Shown here one piece after another: positions 1-7,150 of a stretch of 7,150 bases of DNA. A model generated the notes under the pieces. The model worked only from the letters and a program-made list of their open reading frames with translations. It made no database searches and had not been told where the DNA came from. Every line of letters starts with the position of its first letter. Position 1 is the first letter of the stretch. The DNA is from Thioalkalivibrio nitratireducens (GTDB lineage: Bacteria > Pseudomonadota > Gammaproteobacteria > Ectothiorhodospirales > Ectothiorhodospiraceae), in NCBI GenBank assembly GCA_011390385.1, contig JAABSN010000172.1, forward strand, positions 1-7,150, in the 5' to 3' direction. Both the position numbers and the translations under genes were made by a program.

Positions 1-291
1 CAGCAAGCGTGCCGACCAGCTCACGCCGGCGATGCCGCGCGAGTTGTTGCCGGTCGCCGCGACGATGCCGGACACCCGTGTGCCATGCCAGGAACTGGTG
101 GTGGGGAAATTGCCCGCCGGACCGTCGCCGCAGCCGAAGAAAAACGGATCCTGGAGATCGAGCGTAGTCAAAAAGTCGCCCTCATCACTTGCGTCTGCAT
201 CCCGGCCGGAACCGTCGCCTGCCGCTCGCGGATCGCTGATGAAGTCGTAGCCCGGCAACAAGCGCTCAGCCAGATCCTCGTGTTCGAACAT
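1..291 (-). pseudogene. Subtilisin-like (S8) serine protease fragment, 5'-truncated and open at the left edge
   Basis: The minus strand read from 291 down to 1 is open for 97 codons and leaves the window without a stop. It has the look of an exported S8 peptidase: [19 protein letters not shown] near the start, an acidic Gly/Asp-rich loop ([15 protein letters not shown], about residues 25-39), then [18 protein letters not shown] (about 66-83), where His69 is the expected catalytic His, followed by GIAGVSW. In this family the catalytic Asp lies in an Asp-Ser/Thr-Gly motif a few residues before the FEHEDL-type segment. Here an in-frame TGA (295-297) lies two codons upstream of the only ATG, and no D-T/S-G is readable in any of the three minus frames there. 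Signal peptide, propeptide and Asp motif therefore seem lost. No good ribosome binding site precedes ATG 291: the nearest AGGAG is about 20 bases away and better placed for an out-of-frame ATG. The catalytic Ser region lies outside the window. Family assignment is secure; calling it a pseudogene is inference. Confidence 0.72.
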
Positions 292-631
292 GACTCAGGC
301 CACATTTGGATCTCCTGTCAAAGGGTTCGGAACCGTCTTTCGCATTCGAGCCATGCAATCAAGGCCAGCGATCATGATTCCAAAAGCAGCACAGACAACG
401 TCGGTAAGGTCCTCGATGACCTGAGGAGGGTCTGAAGAGTTCCGCTCACGGCCGGCCAGCATACCGGCAGTCCAAATGCCCGCAAGCGTCCAACAGCCTT
501 AGTCAGAGCAGAATCGAAGTCAAGCATGGCGTTGGCTGTCAAACCCTCTACCGCGCGCAATAGTACCTTCATGCCCCTGTAATTAAAGGGCGGCAGCCTT
601 CCTCCTTCACCAACCTTCATGGAGAAGATAC
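292..631. other. Intergenic stretch with no convincing gene
   Basis: This gap of about 340 bases separates the protease fragment from the PhoD gene. Two minus-strand frames overlap in it. One (start at 620, or an internal ATG at 573, to the stop at 372) contains MKVLLRAVEGLTANAMLDFD. The other (ATG 462 to the stop at 295) encodes 55 residues including VIEDLTDVVCAAFGIMIAGL and runs in the same frame as the protease fragment, separated from it by a TGA. Neither has a well-placed ribosome binding site or resembles a family I know. They could be halves of one frameshifted small gene, or noise. I see no convincing -35/-10 pair for the downstream gene and no clear pho box. Confidence 0.4.
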
Positions 632-2353
632 ATGCTGCCCAAGGTTCCGACTCGTCGCAAATTCATCCGCAACATCATAATCGGCGGCGCCGCCGTAAGC
701 GGCAGTTTGGGGCTGAATGCGTGTGGTTCAGGAGGCTCTGACAGCGCCAGTTTTAATCCGCGCGTTGTCAGTTTTGAGCATGGCGTCGCCAGTGGTGACC
801 CCATGCAGGACCGGGTGGTGATCTGGACCCGCGTGAGCAACAGCAATGACGAGATCGAGGTGCAATGGGAAATGGCCGAAGACTCAGACTTCACAACGCT
901 CACCGCTTCCGGCACGCTCGCGACCGACGCCAGCCGAGACTATACGGTCAAGGTCGATGTGACAGGCCTGCTTCCCGATCGCATCTACTACTACCGCTTC
1001 CGCGCCGACCAGACGATCTCTCCCGTGGGCCGCACCCGCAGTCTACCTGCCGGCACAACCGAGCGGGTCCGTCTGGCGGTGATGAGTTGCTCCAATTATC
1101 CCGCGGGTTACTTTCATGTCTATGCCGAAATCGCACGCATTGCAGCAGACCTGAACGCTGCAATCCACCTTGGCGACTACATCTACGAGTACGAACGCGA
1201 CGGTTACGCATCGGCCGACGCTGCGGCGCTGGGGCGCGTCTCCGATCCTGCGCACGAGCTATTGACGCTGTCCGACTATCGCATCCGCTATGCGCAATAC
1301 CGCACTGACCCCGACCTGCAGGCCTTCCACGCCAACGTCCCGCTGATTGCGGTGTGGGACGATCACGAGATCGCCAACGACACCTGGCGCGGTGGGGCAG
1401 AGAACCACGACCCCGCAACCGAAGGCGACTTCCTCGCGCGTCGCGATGCGGCGATTCAGGCGTGGTACGAATGGTTGCCGGTTCGAGCGCCAAACGCCGC
1501 GCTTCCCGAGCGGATCTACCGCAGCTTCAACTTCGGCGATCTGGTTGCCCTGCACATGCTCGATACGCGCGTAATTGCGCGTGACGAGCAACTCGACTAC
1601 GCCGACTTCTTCGGTGCGAACGGCAGCTTCGACGCAATCGGCTTCGCCACGGCCATCGGCGACCCCAGCCGGCAATTACTCGGTGTCGAGCAGAGCAACT
1701 GGCTACAAATGCAGATGGCCAACTCGACCGCCACCTGGCAAATGCTCGGCCAACAGGTATTGATCGGCCGGATGACGTTACCCGCTCCAGTTGCCCTGCA
1801 AAGCATCGGCTTCTCCGAATATGGCGAGTTGCTCGGTCGTGCTCAGAGCGCACCCGAAACACTCACCGACGAAGACCGCGCCGTGCTCGCCCAACCGTCG
1901 ATTCCCTACAATCTGGACGCCTGGGATGGTTACGCCGTCGCACGCGAGACCTTGCTGGGAACCGCCCGACAACTCGACAAGAACCTCGTCGTGCTGTCGG
2001 GCGACACCCATAACGCCTGGGCCAACGATTTGCTGGATCTGGCTGGCAACCGTGTCGGGGTCGAATTCGCGACACCTTCGGTATCGTCACCGGGCCTGGA
2101 GGCGTTTCTGACCAATGAAAATCCGCTAGTCCTGGCCGCGGGAGTAACACAGCTGATCGAGCCCCTCCAGTACGCCAACACCGGCGACCGCGGTTTCATG
2201 CTGGTCGAAGCACGCACCGATCAGTGCATCGCCGAGTGGCGCTTCGTGTCCACCGTGAAAGATAGGGCCCATGATTTCTTCAACGGACCGCGCCTGCGCA
2301 CCCTGCCCGGGAGCGACCAGCGTCGCATCGAAGTCGACGAAGCACCCGTATGA
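632..2353 (+). CDS. phoD: PhoD-family alkaline phosphatase/phosphodiesterase, Tat-exported lipoprotein
   Basis: Product of 573 residues, close to the usual length of PhoD proteins. PhoD enzymes are extracytoplasmic metallophosphatases that release phosphate from phosphomonoesters and phosphodiesters. The N-terminus has a twin-arginine motif (TRRKFI, R8-R9), a hydrophobic stretch and a lipobox-like LNAC (Cys31), so folded export by Tat followed by lipidation is likely. Asn at -2 is not the usual lipobox residue. An N-terminal PhoD domain follows (HGVASGDPMQDRVVIWTRV, about 50-68). The metallophosphatase core shows MSCSNYPAGYF (Cys153), HLGDYIYEY (Asp182), VWDDHEIANDTW (Asp243, Asp244, His245, Asn249) and LSGDTHNAW (Asp458, His460), the order of metal ligands seen in PhoD. 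The start is supported by GGAGA six bases upstream (621-625). The 5'-nucleotidase gene begins 106 bases downstream on the same strand, so co-transcription is plausible. The symbol reflects family membership, not proven orthology. Confidence 0.93.
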   Translation: MLPKVPTRRKFIRNIIIGGAAVSGSLGLNACGSGGSDSASFNPRVVSFEHGVASGDPMQDRVVIWTRVSNSNDEIEVQWEMAEDSDFTTLTASGTLATDASRDYTVKVDVTGLLPDRIYYYRFRADQTISPVGRTRSLPAGTTERVRLAVMSCSNYPAGYFHVYAEIARIAADLNAAIHLGDYIYEYERDGYASADAAALGRVSDPAHELLTLSDYRIRYAQYRTDPDLQAFHANVPLIAVWDDHEIANDTWRGGAENHDPATEGDFLARRDAAIQAWYEWLPVRAPNAALPERIYRSFNFGDLVALHMLDTRVIARDEQLDYADFFGANGSFDAIGFATAIGDPSRQLLGVEQSNWLQMQMANSTATWQMLGQQVLIGRMTLPAPVALQSIGFSEYGELLGRAQSAPETLTDEDRAVLAQPSIPYNLDAWDGYAVARETLLGTARQLDKNLVVLSGDTHNAWANDLLDLAGNRVGVEFATPSVSSPGLEAFLTNENPLVLAAGVTQLIEPLQYANTGDRGFMLVEARTDQCIAEWRFVSTVKDRAHDFFNGPRLRTLPGSDQRRIEVDEAPV

Positions 2354-2391
2354 GTCGCGTCCCTGCCATTGATCTTCTTCATTTAACGTTT

Positions 2392-2404
2392 CCGTCACCG
2401 ACGG
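2392..2404 (+). other. Weak hairpin between phoD and the nucleotidase gene
   Basis: CCGTC (2392-2396) and GACGG (2400-2404) form a perfect 5-bp inverted repeat around a 3-base loop in the gap between the two plus-strand genes. No T-run follows, so it is not a standard intrinsic terminator. At most it would be a minor processing or attenuation element, and it may be chance. Confidence 0.25.
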
Positions 2405-2459
2405 GTAACACGTAGGTTGGATAGTCCGGCGTTCACTAATCAAGCTAGGCGAGGTAACG

Positions 2460-4304
2460 ATGTTCAAGAGAAGCGCGCTACAGATGGCTATTTTGTCTGC
2501 CACGGCCATGTTAGCCTTGAGCGGCTGTGGTGGTTCGGGCGGTTCCGGTAGCTCAGATGACGAAGGTCTTGAACTCACCATCCTGCATATCAACGATCAT
2601 CATTCCAACCTGGATCCGTCCAATGCGACGTTACGGCTCAAGACGTCTGCGGCAAGTGACGAACGCGAGCGCGTAACCGTTAGCATGGGTGGATTCCCGC
2701 GGGTGACTCAAGCGATTGAGGAAATTGCGGCGCAACATGAAAACGTGCTCAAACTGCACGGCGGCGATGCAATTACCGGCACCCTTTACTACACACTCGA
2801 GGAGGGACGCGCCGACGCGGACCTGATGAACACGGTTTGCTTTGACGCAATGGCCGTCGGCAACCACGAATTCGATTCTGGCGATGCTGGACTCCGAACC
2901 TTCGCAGATTTTCTGTGGGCCGACGGAATCTGCCGCACGCCCCTGCTCTCGGCCAATGTGTCGCCGCGGCCCGGCTCTCCGCTGGGTAGCGACACCATTC
3001 AGCCATCCGTCATTATAGAGCGCAGTGGACAACGCATCGGAATCATTGGTCTGACCGTCGCAGGCAAGACTCAAAACTCGTCTCGCCCAGACAATGGGAC
3101 CACGTTGCTCGATGAATTAACATCTGCGCAAAGCGAGATAGACGCCTTGCGCGCCGATGGAATCGACAAGATCATTCTCCTCAGCCATCTCGGCTATGGA
3201 GCGGAAACCGCACTCGCGCAACAATTGTCCGGTGTCGATGTGGTCGTCGGCGGTGATTCCCACTCCTTGCTGGGTGACGACAGTTTGAACGCATACGGCC
3301 TCTCACCCGCCGGTGCCTACCCGACGGTGGTAAGCAATCTCGACGGTGATCAGGTGTGCATCGTCCAGGCCTGGCAATACAGCGCGGTGGTCGGCGAGTT
3401 GATGGTGAGCTTCGACAGAAGCGGCCGGGTCACGGCCTGCGAGGGGCAGCCTCATGTCCTGATCGGCGACAGCTTTGCGGGTCGTACGGACCAGGAAGTA
3501 GCCGCAATACTGGCTGACATTGCAACGCAACCGGCATTACGCATCACTCAGGCGTCCACAGTCGCCGAAGCGACGATCGCACCTTACCGGACGGCATTGG
3601 AGGCGTTTGGCAGCGAGGTGGTGGCCCAGGCGAGCGATGATCTGTGCCTGCGACGCGTTCCGGGCACAACGCGGGATGTATCGCGTTCAAACCTGACGGG
3701 GTGTAACGATGATCCGCATGTAATCGCTTACGGTGGCGACGTTCAGCAAATTGTTGCCGAAGCCTTTCTCCGCCAGGGTCAGCGTTTTGGCGTCGCGCAG
3801 GTGTCATTGCAAAACGCCGGCGGCGTGCGGGTTGACCTGCCCGCGGGGGACATCACCGTCGGGGATATCTTCACCGTACTCCCGTTCAAGAACACGCTGG
3901 TTCGCTTGACCATGTCCGGCACCGAGGTCAAGGCAGCGATCGAGGACGCCATGGAGGCAGTCGTAAACGGCAGCACTGGATCCTACCCTTATGCAGGCGG
4001 ACTTCGCTGGCATGTCGATTTGCGCCAACCGCGCAACAGTCGCGTCACCACCCTCGAGATCAGGGGGCTGGGTAACATCTGGTTGCCTCTGGATCTTGCC
4101 GCCACCTACCAGGTGATTACCAACGACTTCATCGCCGATGGGCAGGATGGCTACGTCACTCTTGGAACGATTGATGGCGATAGACGCGAGGATACCTTCC
4201 TCGCTTATGCCGACTCATTCCTGCAATTCGCACTCGAAAATCCGGTGCTGTCTCGACCGGCGAGTAGTGAGTTCAGCACGCAGTCGTTCATTGATACGGA
4301 ATAA
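2460..4304 (+). CDS. UshA/NadN-type 5'-nucleotidase, lipoprotein
   Basis: Product of 614 residues, somewhat longer than E. coli UshA (about 550). Members hydrolyse nucleotides, and sometimes UDP-sugars or NAD, to nucleosides and phosphate outside the cytoplasm. The N-terminus is a Sec lipoprotein signal with lipobox LSGC (Cys23), then a Gly/Ser-rich linker and an acidic patch; no Asp at +2 suggests outer-membrane sorting. The N-terminal metallophosphatase domain shows HINDHHSNLDP (Asp46, His48), HGGDAITGTLYYT (Asp103), AVGNHEFDSGD (Asn135, His136, Glu137), LSHLGYG (His243) and VVGGDSHSLLG (His268). The C-terminal 5'-nucleotidase domain shows LQNAGGVR (Asn452, Arg457), GDIFTVLPFKNTL, and TNDFIADGQDGY (about 554-565), the nucleotide-binding side of the family. 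The first metal motif has DHHS where DxHG is usual; the Asp and His ligands remain. GAGG five bases before the ATG fixes the start. It lies behind phoD and is closed by a strong terminator. UshA, NadN and CpdB-like specificity cannot be separated by eye. Confidence 0.93.
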   Translation: MFKRSALQMAILSATAMLALSGCGGSGGSGSSDDEGLELTILHINDHHSNLDPSNATLRLKTSAASDERERVTVSMGGFPRVTQAIEEIAAQHENVLKLHGGDAITGTLYYTLEEGRADADLMNTVCFDAMAVGNHEFDSGDAGLRTFADFLWADGICRTPLLSANVSPRPGSPLGSDTIQPSVIIERSGQRIGIIGLTVAGKTQNSSRPDNGTTLLDELTSAQSEIDALRADGIDKIILLSHLGYGAETALAQQLSGVDVVVGGDSHSLLGDDSLNAYGLSPAGAYPTVVSNLDGDQVCIVQAWQYSAVVGELMVSFDRSGRVTACEGQPHVLIGDSFAGRTDQEVAAILADIATQPALRITQASTVAEATIAPYRTALEAFGSEVVAQASDDLCLRRVPGTTRDVSRSNLTGCNDDPHVIAYGGDVQQIVAEAFLRQGQRFGVAQVSLQNAGGVRVDLPAGDITVGDIFTVLPFKNTLVRLTMSGTEVKAAIEDAMEAVVNGSTGSYPYAGGLRWHVDLRQPRNSRVTTLEIRGLGNIWLPLDLAATYQVITNDFIADGQDGYVTLGTIDGDRREDTFLAYADSFLQFALENPVLSRPASSEFSTQSFIDTE

Positions 4305-4335
4305 CGTCATCCGGACTCGCGCCTTGGTGTAGATC

Positions 4336-4368
4336 GTCGGGCCACGCTTTCAGGTGGCCCGACATTTT
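4336..4368 (+). terminator. Intrinsic terminator of the phoD-nucleotidase unit
   Basis: GTCGGGCCAC (4336-4345) and GTGGCCCGAC (4354-4363) form a perfect 10-bp GC-rich stem with an 8-base loop. It is followed on the plus strand by ATTTT and begins 31 bases after the nucleotidase stop codon. The convergent minus-strand gene ends at 4385, so transcripts from that side also read into the stem. They meet no U-run after it, so termination of that gene here would be weaker. Confidence 0.85.
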
Positions 4369-4384
4369 AAGGCGCCACAGTGCA

Positions 4385-5698
4385 TCACTGCCCGCCGCCC
4401 GCGATCGTACCGTAGGCCGCGCCCATCAGCAGGTGTGCATAGCCCTCGCCGTCTGGCTCCTGCGGCGCAGCCAGCGTGAAGTCCGCCTGTTGCTGAAAGA
4501 CCATGACGAAGTCCGAGCCGCCGAACAGGAAATTGCCGAGCATCGCACCCTTCGCGTGGTTGCTGCCTGCCTTGACGACGTCCTCGAACTGCACCGAGGA
4601 GACCATGGCCATGCCCATCGGGATCAGCGCCACCAAGCCGGTGTTGCCGGTATCGACGATGACCACCCCGCGGGTCTGGGCGAACTGCCAGCCGGTGGAG
4701 ACGACGGGCTCGTAGCGCCCCGTCTCGGCGTTCCAGGTGACCTCCAGTGCGACGTTCTGCTGGATCTTGCTGATCTCCTTGACGGTGCCGCCGACCGGAA
4801 AATGGTAGCGGTGATAGTCATTGACATTGAGGAAGGTGTGTGTAAGCACGCCACCGGCGAAGGAGTCTGCGTAAGCAGTATCCGGGCCGAGCAGCTCCGG
4901 GATGCTGTAGAAGCGCGCGAGCTTGACGCGGAGGCCACCTTCGACCTGGATCCTGGATTGCTCGTCAATGGGCCAGACGCCCTGAGGCACCGAGTCGGCC
5001 GGCGCCGTGACCACGCGTGGATCGTCCGGGGCGGCGATGGGCCGCACTGACGGGTCGCGCAGATAGCGGGCGAAGAACTGGTTGAAGGTGCTCCAGCGGG
5101 TGGGTGACTCGTACCAGTCGCGCGTCAGGCCGAAGCTCGGATCGGCAAGGAACTGCTGATAGGTGGCTTGGGTCCAGGACGCCTCGGTGTTCAGGAACTG
5201 CCCCCAGGTGATGGTGAAGTCCCGCAGCCAGTTGGAGAACGGCGGGGCGTACTGGACGGTGTTCCTGTACAGGCCCTGGTCGGCCAACGCATCGAGCGGC
5301 TGGTCCACCAGAAAATGGAAGTAGCAGATCAGCTGCAGGATCTGGTCGCGGATCAGCTCGGGCGGGTTGTCAACGATCTGCTGCGGGATCAGCTTGCTGG
5401 ACTCGTCGATGAAGGCATAGTACGCGGCCAGGGTCTGGACCGGGTTGGTCTCCAGGTCCGGGTTCACCTTGGCGGCTGCGGCGATGGACTGCGCCAGCAG
5501 CTCGCCGACCTCGGGCTGTTCTTCGATCAGCTGCTGCAGCGCACGGGTGATGGGCGCATGCGACCCTGCGCTATCGACGGTTGGCTGCCCGAACACCGGC
5601 TCGGCCCCCTGAGCCGTAACCGGCGCGGCGGCTATCGCCAGAAACAGGACAGCGATGGCGACCCAAGCGGTACGACAGCAAGGCGATGCGGTGGACAT
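4385..5698 (-). CDS. Secreted phosphatidylserine decarboxylase-like (PsiD-related) protein
   Basis: Product of 437 residues, longer than the roughly 320 of classical bacterial PSD. It has a Sec signal peptide (hydrophobic about 11-25, likely cleavage after VTA, residue 29). A helical N-terminal domain (about 45-215) matches in character the extension found in PsiD-type proteins, then FNQFFARYLRDPSVRPI opens the decarboxylase fold. Core marks are TAPADS (Asp235), FLNVNDYHRYHFPVGGTV (His296 and His299, the DYHRxH block of PSDs), MGMAMVSSV, and MLGNFLFGGSDFVMVFQ with Gly393-Gly394-Ser395. PSDs self-cleave before such a Ser to make a pyruvoyl cofactor; by position Asp235, His296 and Ser395 could form the processing triad (inference). 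The substrate is unknown. AGGAG (plus-strand coordinates 5708-5712) lies about nine bases upstream of the ATG. It is transcribed divergently from a second family member and convergently with the nucleotidase. Third positions are very rich in G/C. Confidence 0.85.
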   Translation of the reverse strand: MSTASPCCRTAWVAIAVLFLAIAAAPVTAQGAEPVFGQPTVDSAGSHAPITRALQQLIEEQPEVGELLAQSIAAAAKVNPDLETNPVQTLAAYYAFIDESSKLIPQQIVDNPPELIRDQILQLICYFHFLVDQPLDALADQGLYRNTVQYAPPFSNWLRDFTITWGQFLNTEASWTQATYQQFLADPSFGLTRDWYESPTRWSTFNQFFARYLRDPSVRPIAAPDDPRVVTAPADSVPQGVWPIDEQSRIQVEGGLRVKLARFYSIPELLGPDTAYADSFAGGVLTHTFLNVNDYHRYHFPVGGTVKEISKIQQNVALEVTWNAETGRYEPVVSTGWQFAQTRGVVIVDTGNTGLVALIPMGMAMVSSVQFEDVVKAGSNHAKGAMLGNFLFGGSDFVMVFQQQADFTLAAPQEPDGEGYAHLLMGAAYGTIAGGGQ

Positions 5699-5743
5699 GG
5701 CGAATAGCTCCTCTGCGTCTGAGTAAAGATGCGGTTGGCTAAA

Positions 5744-5758
5744 GGCCGGCGAACGGCC
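5744..5758 (-). promoter_or_regulatory. Small hairpin in the leader of the minus-strand PSD-like gene
   Basis: GGCCG (5744-5748) and CGGCC (5754-5758) pair around the 5-base loop GCGAA, 46 bases upstream of the minus-strand start. TTGGC (5735-5739) and GCCAA (5756-5760) offer an alternative, partly exclusive pairing. This could be a leader structure or an operator half. Support is structural only. Confidence 0.3.
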
Positions 5759-5877
5759 AAATATCGGGAAGGATAGGAAATCGAACGCGACATCCGGGAG
5801 TATCTTCGCCTCTTGCGGCCTGAGTCAATCGCCGATCTCGCATCAGGAAGTCCTCGGTGCCGCCATAAACCGCCCAG

Positions 5878-5889
5878 TGCGGACCCGCA
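5878..5889. promoter_or_regulatory. 12-bp dyad, possible operator
   Basis: TGCGG, two spacer bases (AC), then CCGCA form a perfect short inverted repeat 67 bases upstream of the plus-strand PsiD-like start. The spacer is too short for a stable RNA loop, so a binding site for a dimeric DNA-binding protein is the better reading. No second copy was noticed in the window. Confidence 0.3.
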
Positions 5890-5902
5890 TACCGGATTGT
5901 GT

Positions 5903-5939
5903 GGGAGGGGCAGTCAGGTATCCTGATCGCCCCTATCCC
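5903..5939 (+). promoter_or_regulatory. Strong imperfect hairpin just upstream of the PsiD-like gene
   Basis: AGGGGC (5906-5911) pairs with GCCCCT (5929-5934). Inside it TCAGG (5914-5918) pairs with CCTGA (5922-5926) around the loop TAT, with one G-U pair and one mismatch between the two stems. GGG (5903-5905) can extend the base by pairing with CCC (5937-5939) across a 2-base bulge. The structure ends six bases before the GGAGA ribosome binding site (5946-5950) of the gene starting at 5956. No T-run follows directly, so it is not a standard terminator. A 5'-leader control element, an mRNA stabiliser or a protein-binding dyad are the options. Confidence 0.5.
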
Positions 5940-5955
5940 GATTTTGGAGAACGCC

Positions 5956-7150
5956 ATGTCTATCTTTCCAAAACCTCAGGGGATAATCGCCCTGATCGTT
6001 CTCTTGCTACTGCCGTTGGCGCCCAGTGTGGCACCGGTGGTGCAGGCGGAGTCAGTGACCATTGCCGGGTCATTGGCGCTTGCGGAACAACCGACCCAAG
6101 CAGGCTCGCTAGCCCCAGTCGTCGAGGAGTTGCGCGCGCTGATCGAGGGCGACCCGGAGTTGTTCATGCTATTTACGCAAATGTTCGAGCAGCTGCCGGA
6201 TCAGCCCCCTTATCACCAAGATCCGACCGGTGCGCCGCCAGTCCGCGATTATCAAGAACTGCTGGTTAAGCTCGATCAGATCCTTACCCAGGCGCCCACC
6301 TTCAATCAGACCGGGCTGGTCGGCTTTCCAATCAATGCGCTCATCAATTGGCCGATGGGAACGCCGGCCGGCGCGACGGTCTTCCTGGACGAGAGGGTTA
6401 ATCGCCAGCTCAAAAAGATTCTCAATCAATGGGCCGTTTTTCTGAACGCCCCTGAGTCTGCTACTGTGCTGAGCGATGATCCAGAGCGTGGCTGGTTAGG
6501 GCATGATGCGATGGCGGCGATGCCAAATTTCGTCGAAGATTTTATCAGCGATCCTGATCAGCCTCATTATGGCTTCACCTCTTGGGATGATTTCTTCACT
6601 CGTCGCTTCCGTGATGGGCGCCGCCCGGTAGCCTCACCCGAGGATGACAGCGTGATCGCCAATGCCTGTGAGTCGGCGCCCTATCGGGTCGCCACCCAGG
6701 TTAACCTGCGCGACCGCTTTTGGATCAAATCCCAGCCCTATTCGCTCGTGCACATCTTTGCCGACGTTGACCTGGCCCATACCTTCGCCGGTGGCACTGT
6801 CTATCAGGCATTCTTGAGCGCGCTCAGTTATCACCGCTGGCACAGCCCGGTCAGCGGCACCATTGTGGACACCCGGCTGTTGGATGGCTCCTATTACGCG
6901 CAGGCGTTGTCGACCGGATTCGATCCGGCCAGTCCCAATGAGTCCCAAGGCTATCTCGCCCAGGTCGCTGCCCGCGGCATCGTCCTGATCGAGGCCGATA
7001 ACCCGGACATTGGCCTGATGGCGGCGGTTTTCATCGGCATGGCCGAGGTGTCATCGAACGAGATCACTGTCTATCCCGGCCAGCGCGTTGCCAAGGGCGA
7101 TCAGCTCGGCATGTTCCACTTCGGCGGCTCGACCCATCTGTTGATGTTCC
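5956..7150 (+). CDS. Secreted PsiD-like decarboxylase (PSD family), cut at the right edge
   Basis: The frame is open from ATG 5956 to the window end: 398 complete codons, no stop reached. GGAGA (5946-5950) precedes the start by five bases. Residues 1-31 form a Sec signal peptide (hydrophobic 10-19, probable cleavage after VQA). An N-terminal helical domain (about 40-205) is followed by YGFTSWDDFFTRRFRDGRRP, the classic entry to PsiD-type decarboxylases. Further marks are NACESAPYRV (Glu239), SYHRWHSPVSGTIVD (His293, His296), IVLIEADNPDIGLMAAVFIG, and QLGMFHFGGSTHLLMF with Gly390-Gly391-Ser392, the expected self-cleavage and pyruvoyl site. From memory these blocks closely match Psilocybe PsiD (YHRWHAP, FIEADNKEIGL, DDLGMFHFGGSS), a soluble L-tryptophan decarboxylase. 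The substrate here is not known; the signal peptide places it outside the cytoplasm. The Glu in ACES sits where the neighbouring homologue has Asp. Only the C-terminal tail seems missing. It is divergent from the homologue ending at 4385 and uses noticeably more A/T-ending codons. Confidence 0.87.
   Translation, partial: MSIFPKPQGIIALIVLLLLPLAPSVAPVVQAESVTIAGSLALAEQPTQAGSLAPVVEELRALIEGDPELFMLFTQMFEQLPDQPPYHQDPTGAPPVRDYQELLVKLDQILTQAPTFNQTGLVGFPINALINWPMGTPAGATVFLDERVNRQLKKILNQWAVFLNAPESATVLSDDPERGWLGHDAMAAMPNFVEDFISDPDQPHYGFTSWDDFFTRRFRDGRRPVASPEDDSVIANACESAPYRVATQVNLRDRFWIKSQPYSLVHIFADVDLAHTFAGGTVYQAFLSALSYHRWHSPVSGTIVDTRLLDGSYYAQALSTGFDPASPNESQGYLAQVAARGIVLIEADNPDIGLMAAVFIGMAEVSSNEITVYPGQRVAKGDQLGMFHFGGSTHLLMF

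Follow-up and report, generated by a model that had tools for sequence, protein, structure and literature searches.

The window analysed here, a stretch of 7,150 nucleotides from Thioalkalivibrio nitratireducens (contig JAABSN010000172.1, positions 1 to 7,150), contains two divergently oriented genes, A (P0001) and B (P0002), which, judged from their sequences, are real pyruvoyl-type decarboxylase genes with predicted export leaders. Both open reading frames (ORFs) lie where a preliminary description of this DNA had put them, and both match PF02666, of the phosphatidylserine decarboxylase (PSD) superfamily, above its curated cut-off of 22 bits (A 135.1 bits; B 115.7 bits, E 2.8e-33). Their features are as follows:

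4385..5698, minus strand: gene A, PSD-superfamily decarboxylase with predicted export leader, 437 amino acids (PF02666, 3.1e-39)
5612..5698, minus strand: A leader, residues 1-29, likely cut after VTA (leader heuristic)
5099..5566, minus strand: A N-terminal helical domain, about residues 45-200, counterpart of the PsiD-type N-domain (profile comparison and structural alignment)
4475..5086, minus strand: A catalytic domain PF02666, residues 205-408 (Pfam)
4994..4996, minus strand: A Asp235 (PAD motif), at the position of the PSD-type catalytic Asp (motif)
4802..4813, minus strand: A His296 and His299 (YHRYH; motif)
4514..4522, minus strand: A Gly393-Gly394-Ser395, predicted self-cleavage/pyruvoyl site (GGSDF conservation and analogy with E. 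coli PSD)
5708..5712, minus strand: A ribosome-binding site AGGAG, 9 bases before the ATG (read by eye)
5699..5955, no strand: divergent A/B intergenic region, 257 bases (ORF coordinates)
5946..5949, plus strand: B ribosome-binding site GGAG, 6 bases before the ATG (read by eye)
5956..7150, plus strand: gene B, PsiD/ArgDC-type decarboxylase with predicted export leader, 398 amino acids to the edge (Pfam and PDB matches)
5956..6048, plus strand: B leader, residues 1-31, likely cut after VQA (leader heuristic)
6115..6522, plus strand: B N-terminal domain PF12588 (PSDC, PsiD-type), residues 54-189 (Pfam)
6586..7149, plus strand: B catalytic domain PF02666, residues 211-398 (Pfam)
6670..6672, plus strand: B Glu239 (CES motif), replacing the PSD Asp (motif)
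6832..6843, plus strand: B His293 and His296 (YHRWH; motif)
7123..7131, plus strand: B Gly390-Gly391-Ser392, predicted self-cleavage/pyruvoyl site (GGSTH conservation)

B is incomplete here: its frame has no stop and runs into the window edge six residues past the GGS serine, so that the C-terminus is cut off; its nearest homologue, P0122, is about 40 residues longer. The intergenic region holds one promoter-like site (minus strand, 5799-5828), no more than in shuffled sequence (mean 0.7), and five terminator-like sites surround the pair (shuffles 2.1, sd 1.9).

A and B are homologous, with only 27% identity over an alignment of 405 columns (E 1e-25), too diverged for a recent duplication, as the preliminary description had judged; profiles of the two families align over A columns 32-395 with a probability of 99.4%. 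B matches PF12588 strongly (E 1.2e-47; 161.9 bits, cut-off 23.4), whereas a Pfam search of A gave no PF12588 match at E<=10; two A-family relatives match it weakly, at 21.9 and 20.3 bits, below the cut-off. The PsiD-type N-terminal extension ascribed to both proteins thus stands for B, and for A it stands as a region homologous by profile and fold, without the Pfam match. The AlphaFold2 model of A (predicted local distance difference test score 85.5) has a confidence below 50 at residues 1-10 and 18-44, is folded from about residue 47 onward and aligns structurally to PsiD, the L-tryptophan decarboxylase of Psilocybe, over residues 45-393. When models were compared by structure, the closest folds to A and B were free-amino-acid decarboxylases, so that the label 'PSD-like' is right about the superfamily and otherwise too loose. 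PDB sequence matches of B include 9jer (6e-72), the arginine decarboxylase of Aspergillus oryzae, and 8x4q (2.4e-67), a PsiD. Neither protein reaches the housekeeping PSD equivalogs NF001941 (A at best 71.3 bits, B 92.7, cut-off 371) and TIGR00163 (A 55.8, B 46.6, cut-off 111.75).

The blocks FFxRxxRD, YHRxH and GGS, described earlier as shared, are all found in both proteins. The motif set of A is PAD (Asp235), YHRYH (His296, His299) and GGS (Ser395); that of B is CES (Glu239), YHRWH (His293, His296) and GGS (Ser392). The PSD-type catalytic Asp is kept by A only, and the Glu in its place in B is common to PsiD and the A. oryzae enzyme. Conservation is close to complete among the 120 A and 121 B proteins listed, the window's own included: PAD[SC] in 119, YH[RH][YF]H in 120 and GGSDF in 120 of the A proteins; CE[SA]AP in 121, YHRWH in 121 and GGSTH in 120 of the B proteins. 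The GGS motif attributed to both is present in each, self-cleavage at it being predicted. We take the Asp-His-Ser catalytic roles of these motifs to be those of E. coli PSD. That enzyme cleaves itself at Ser254 and uses a Schiff-base mechanism, according to an excerpt of PMC8027125.

Both families are common, with at least 1,811 A homologues (7,997 candidates scored) and at least 5,486 B homologues (8,000 scored) at E<=0.001. Among named relatives, A is nearest to proteins of Thiohalocapsa and Thiodictyon (68-78%) and B to one of Thiorhodococcus (74%), which makes a purple sulfur bacterium the probable source of the DNA. A loci, of which 80 of 252 confirmed were kept for comparison, span Chromatiaceae, Desulfobulbaceae and their kin, Bacteroidota, Chlorobiaceae, Bacillota, Verrucomicrobia, Omnitrophota, Methanothrix archaea and others. 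Within groups the distribution is patchy: A matches above 700 bits in 3 of 146 genomes of Thiohalocapsa marina's family. B is rarer, matching above 600 bits in 1 of 299 genomes of its phylum, that one leaderless, and of 247 genomes in the phylum to which G013 belongs, four carry PF12588. A is usually an extra enzyme, since 50 of 70 A-bearing genomes (15 of 20 and 35 of 50, covering 70 of the 80 A loci; counted by eye, three partial matches being included and one unsure case left out) hold a further PF02666 match in a frame of about 204-370 amino acids, the size of an ordinary PSD; the other 20, whose completeness is not given, have no countable further match. Databases label A, B and their relatives phosphatidylserine decarboxylase, a name that is probably wrong for the PF12588 group.

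Export leaders were sought with a heuristic that looks for a hydrophobic core, a positive charge before it and small residues at -3/-1. Both leaders have a positive residue before the core and AxA-type sites after it, and their 10-residue cores have mean hydropathies of 3.32 (A) and 3.85 (B), so the leaders claimed earlier are upheld for both proteins as predictions. Of the listed homologues beginning with Met, the heuristic accepts 103 of 117 for A and 113 of 119 for B; it also accepts five of six rows of a subfamily C described below, and none of 16 leaderless B relatives. The false-positive rate is not small, because 167 of 782 internal Met starts also pass. For A rows drawn from loci, 7 of 15 of which pass, the sequence starts where tblastn matched, which makes them no test of leaders. 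A lipobox pattern matches 8 of the 120 A and 7 of the 121 B proteins; by eye, seven A (for example P0034 and P0089) and two B proteins (P0196 and P0219) resemble genuine lipoproteins. A loose Tat pattern was found in none of the 120 A proteins and in six of the 121 B proteins, none convincing by eye. A further B relative (L139:7282-8673) starts with the Tat-like motif SRRDFIK; such a leader would mean transport when folded, perhaps of a protein that had already processed itself. Because several kinds of leader occur on the same enzyme types, export looks like a kept property.

In a tree of 64 rows, A forms a clade of 15 rows (support 100/100), canonical PSDs one of nine (98/84), and B with its leaderless and fungal relatives one of 34 (100/99). 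Within the last, window B and both fungal enzymes, PsiD and the A. oryzae arginine decarboxylase, fall in a 30-row branch (98/95) outside which A lies, and 21 exported B rows form one branch (97/91); a row labelled exported, L131_B, is leaderless by the heuristic and groups with the leaderless rows. As placed by these sequences, B is a member of the PsiD/arginine-decarboxylase group and A a separate clade of the same architecture. The canonical PSDs came from 15 loci, ten of which gave an ORF matching the family model; L117, a near-copy of L118, was left out, as were L121, L122, L123, L125 and L126, which had no match. Subfamily C (six rows, 97/88; joined to A weakly, 82/45) is a third leader-bearing subfamily, encoded close to A on the same strand in three genomes: L009:7119-11209 (WOR-1), L014:1119-3844 (Verrucomicrobia) and L025:8703-11278 (Desulfobulbaceae). 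The A-C gap is 20 bases in L014 and 35 in L025, and one ORF lies between the two in L009. Its motifs are PTD, YHHYH and GGSLF in L014 and L025, and PAD, YHHFH and GGSSI in L009.

Some leaderless B relatives lie directly behind a putative antiporter gene: on the Enterobacter cancerogenus plasmid pUPC1 (29 bases away, with YfdX and EmrA/EmrK-type genes nearby), on two Photobacterium damselae plasmids that encode an identical protein (97 bases) and in genome G375 (45 bases). Three of these antiporters were scanned and score 488-496 bits against TIGR00905 (cut-off 409); the next best model, an arginine-ornithine antiporter, stays below its own cut-off. Among B loci with context, the arrangement occurs at 4 of the 16 leaderless ones and at none of the six exported ones (L132, L133 and L136-L139; L137 mainly on one side), numbers too small for significance. 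Plasmid records were examined for 14 of 32, two of them unannotated and checked by sequence alone. On the conjugative Enterobacter plasmid (L151:4358-7158), the decarboxylase gene follows one for a basic amino acid antiporter, with YfdX and EmrA/EmrK-type efflux genes close by; this resembles a mobile amino-acid-dependent acid-resistance island whose predicted enzyme uses pyruvoyl, not pyridoxal phosphate (PLP).

Taken together, homology, motifs, heuristic leaders, predicted fold, clades and the lack of pairing set out below are the observations on which our interpretation rests; from them we infer that the proteins are exported and cleave themselves, what they act on and to what end, and that the window's cell has a housekeeping PSD besides. 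A and B would be separate exported decarboxylases of the two-domain PsiD/arginine-decarboxylase type that act on soluble amino-acid-like substrates outside the cytoplasm, a reading to which we give a probability of about 0.6. Each would be made as a proenzyme, leave the cytoplasm through its Sec-type leader, fold and cut itself between Gly and Ser of GGS, creating a new N-terminal pyruvoyl group. This group would form a Schiff base with the alpha-amino group of the substrate, and CO2 and an amine would be released outside the cytoplasm, where one proton would be consumed. Because substrate and product would never cross the inner membrane, no antiporter would be needed; none is seen among the visible neighbours of window B, the window ending inside that gene. 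The pyruvoyl cofactor would suit export, as it is made from the enzyme's own chain and requires no PLP outside the cytoplasm. B, from the clade of the fungal arginine and tryptophan decarboxylases, would probably take a basic amino acid, and A, a separate clade with a PSD-like Asp-His-Ser set, probably also a non-lipid substrate; both would work beside the cell's own PSD, which is seen only in relatives. The uncharacterised extracytoplasmic decarboxylation proposed earlier thus remains the likely outcome, predicted from leaders and family, and two different substrates remain probable.

What finds no support is the back-to-back pair as a system. A and B are adjacent and have a common 257-base upstream region, which would suit divergently encoded partners in a heteromer or in a two-enzyme system of their own, and at 4 of 80 A loci (L009, L013, L014 and L025) a further PSD-superfamily gene of full length, whose product has a leader by the heuristic, lies nearby on the same strand. 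This second gene is never B; in L013 it is another A-type gene 37 bases away, and L031 holds an A fragment. The search for the same divergent pair in other genomes, which the preliminary description had proposed as a check, found no B-family gene at any of the 80 A loci, 71 of which extend 1.5 kb or more in the direction of a divergent partner, and no A-family gene at 27 B loci (23 distinct genes, four loci repeating others; some loci span only about 3.4 kb). PF12588 exceeds its cut-off in 3 of 50 A-bearing genomes, from 50 of the 80 loci, and in one of the three, G001, the protein is leaderless by the heuristic. A and exported B co-occur in two Thiodictyon metagenome-assembled genomes, G002 and G003, on different contigs. 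The side-by-side pair was thus not found elsewhere among the loci compared, the pairing is probably incidental, and we reject the conserved pair; because comparative support is absent, a heteromer or dedicated two-enzyme system is very improbable. Thiohalocapsa marina (G004; L134 = G004:C33, and L097), which carries A, seems to have B-like pieces only, the best a 119-residue frame and another with an inner stop.

Other explanations concern what the enzymes act on and where they sit. One or both, more likely A, might be a true PSD on the periplasmic leaflet, converting phosphatidylserine to phosphatidylethanolamine outside the cytoplasm. A keeps the PSD-type Asp, YHRxH and GGS, and the parts of PMC8027125 and PMC5413845 available report, respectively, that new phosphatidylserine and phosphatidylethanolamine of E. 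coli appear first in the periplasmic leaflet and that Toxoplasma secretes a soluble PSD; we regard this as unlikely. Alternatively, the leaders might escape cleavage and serve as inner-membrane anchors, the catalytic part lying on either side. Such anchors would fit the listed homologues that fail the heuristic (14 of 117 for A, 6 of 119 for B) and the 2 of 9 canonical PSDs that pass it, but AxA sites follow both leaders, and the lipoprotein-type leaders in both families and the Tat motif of L139 point outwards, which makes anchoring improbable. That A and B have lost their activity, or are processed and then serve only structurally, is scarcely credible given catalytic motifs near-invariant among the listed proteins, an intact A frame and a B frame open to the window edge.

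Several observations weigh against exported decarboxylases of soluble amino acids. The passing canonical PSDs make the leader heuristic crude, and L139 fails it at every start, so that its Tat reading is the motif alone. By sequence A matches E. coli PSD best in the PDB (1.5e-13), ahead of 9jer (1e-10) and PsiD (9e-8 and 1.1e-7); with the PSD-type Asp kept, A may act on a lipid or on something else. No single substrate can be fixed for B, because it lacks the GGSS signature of PsiD, having GGST (GGSTH; A has GGSD, in GGSDF), and because the second His of its YHRWH is Asn in the A. oryzae arginine decarboxylase (PDB 9jer, 9jf5; YHCWN). Both fungal rows sit on long branches, and the tree program warned that long branches meet at three places: at L130_PSD, at L009_C and between two PSD groups. 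Finally, 12 of 16 leaderless B loci have no antiporter, and because the link is seen at leaderless loci only, it bears on the chemistry of the clade and not directly on B.

The surroundings of the two genes add little. At lower window positions than A lie:

1-291, minus strand: partial peptidase S8 gene (ORFs and profile search)
632-2353, plus strand: PhoD phosphatase gene (ORFs and profile search)
2460-4304, plus strand: gene for a 5'-nucleotidase/NadN-like protein (ORFs and profile search)

By eye, a Tat-like motif (TRRKFIR) and a lipobox-like LNAC mark the start of the PhoD protein, and a lipobox-like LSGC that of the 5'-nucleotidase; with A and B these are four adjacent genes with predicted export leaders. 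None of the three neighbours finds a match at 1e-10 in 95 related loci (15 of them only about 3-4 kb), and a phospholipid-scavenging module with PhoD was dropped for that reason. An all-against-all comparison of 1,587 ORFs from the 80 A loci found no conserved neighbours of A: besides A and antisense ORFs (24 loci), it gave mainly general families, among them ABC ATPases in 14 loci and sensor-kinase-like proteins in 10, and no other family was in more than five loci (names given by eye from sequence). No Pfam family recurs in more than four of the immediate neighbours, 84 of the 117 selected having been scanned.

Were this reading true, thousands of proteins named phosphatidylserine decarboxylase would be exported amino-acid decarboxylases, and a reaction usually taken as cytoplasmic would gain a new place outside the inner membrane, with a bearing on how biogenic amines are produced, pH is controlled and amino acids are used in the habitats of these families. 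We suggest tentatively, at somewhat less than even odds, that amino acids are decarboxylated outside the cytoplasm in many bacteria and archaea, an activity so far unrecognised: two exported families filed as PSD would turn free amino acids into amines and CO2 in the periplasm or beyond it, consuming protons without an antiporter, and the window's cell would have both, with different substrates. A search of open-access literature, from which most subscription papers are absent, found no report of exported bacterial PSD/PsiD-type enzymes or of exported pyruvoyl amino-acid decarboxylases; an excerpt of PMC10670334 mentions 'microbially secreted amino acid decarboxylases' of food in passing and names no enzyme there.

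Known systems match A and B in part. Amino acid decarboxylases coupled to antiporters, such as AdiA/AdiC, are mostly cytoplasmic PLP enzymes. Some leaderless B relatives resemble them in lying directly behind basic amino acid/polyamine antiporters, whereas window B carries a predicted leader for export, and no antiporter gene is seen on the one side that the window shows. E. coli Psd (PDB 6l06, 7cnw-7cnz) shares PF02666 and YHRxH with A and B, and the Asp with A, but is a one-domain membrane protein with a lipid substrate, and A and B fall below every PSD equivalog cut-off. We know of no export of the A. oryzae pyruvoyl-dependent arginine decarboxylase. That enzyme is cited in the part of PMC12283126 available. 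The secreted Toxoplasma PSD (Gupta et al. 2012, as cited in PMC5413845) is, like predicted A and B, a PSD-superfamily enzyme outside its own cytoplasm; unlike them, it is a lipid enzyme of a eukaryotic parasite. PsiD (PDB 8x4q, 8zia), described as a self-cleaving PSD relative in an excerpt of PMC12099186, shares with B the fold, the 30-row branch, the CES Glu and YHRWH; GGSS, linked to tryptophan decarboxylation, is called unique to PsiD and its kin in the available text of PMC6121855. The fungal group that decarboxylates tryptophan and arginine, in psilocybin and agmatine formation, would be tied to a large bacterial family.

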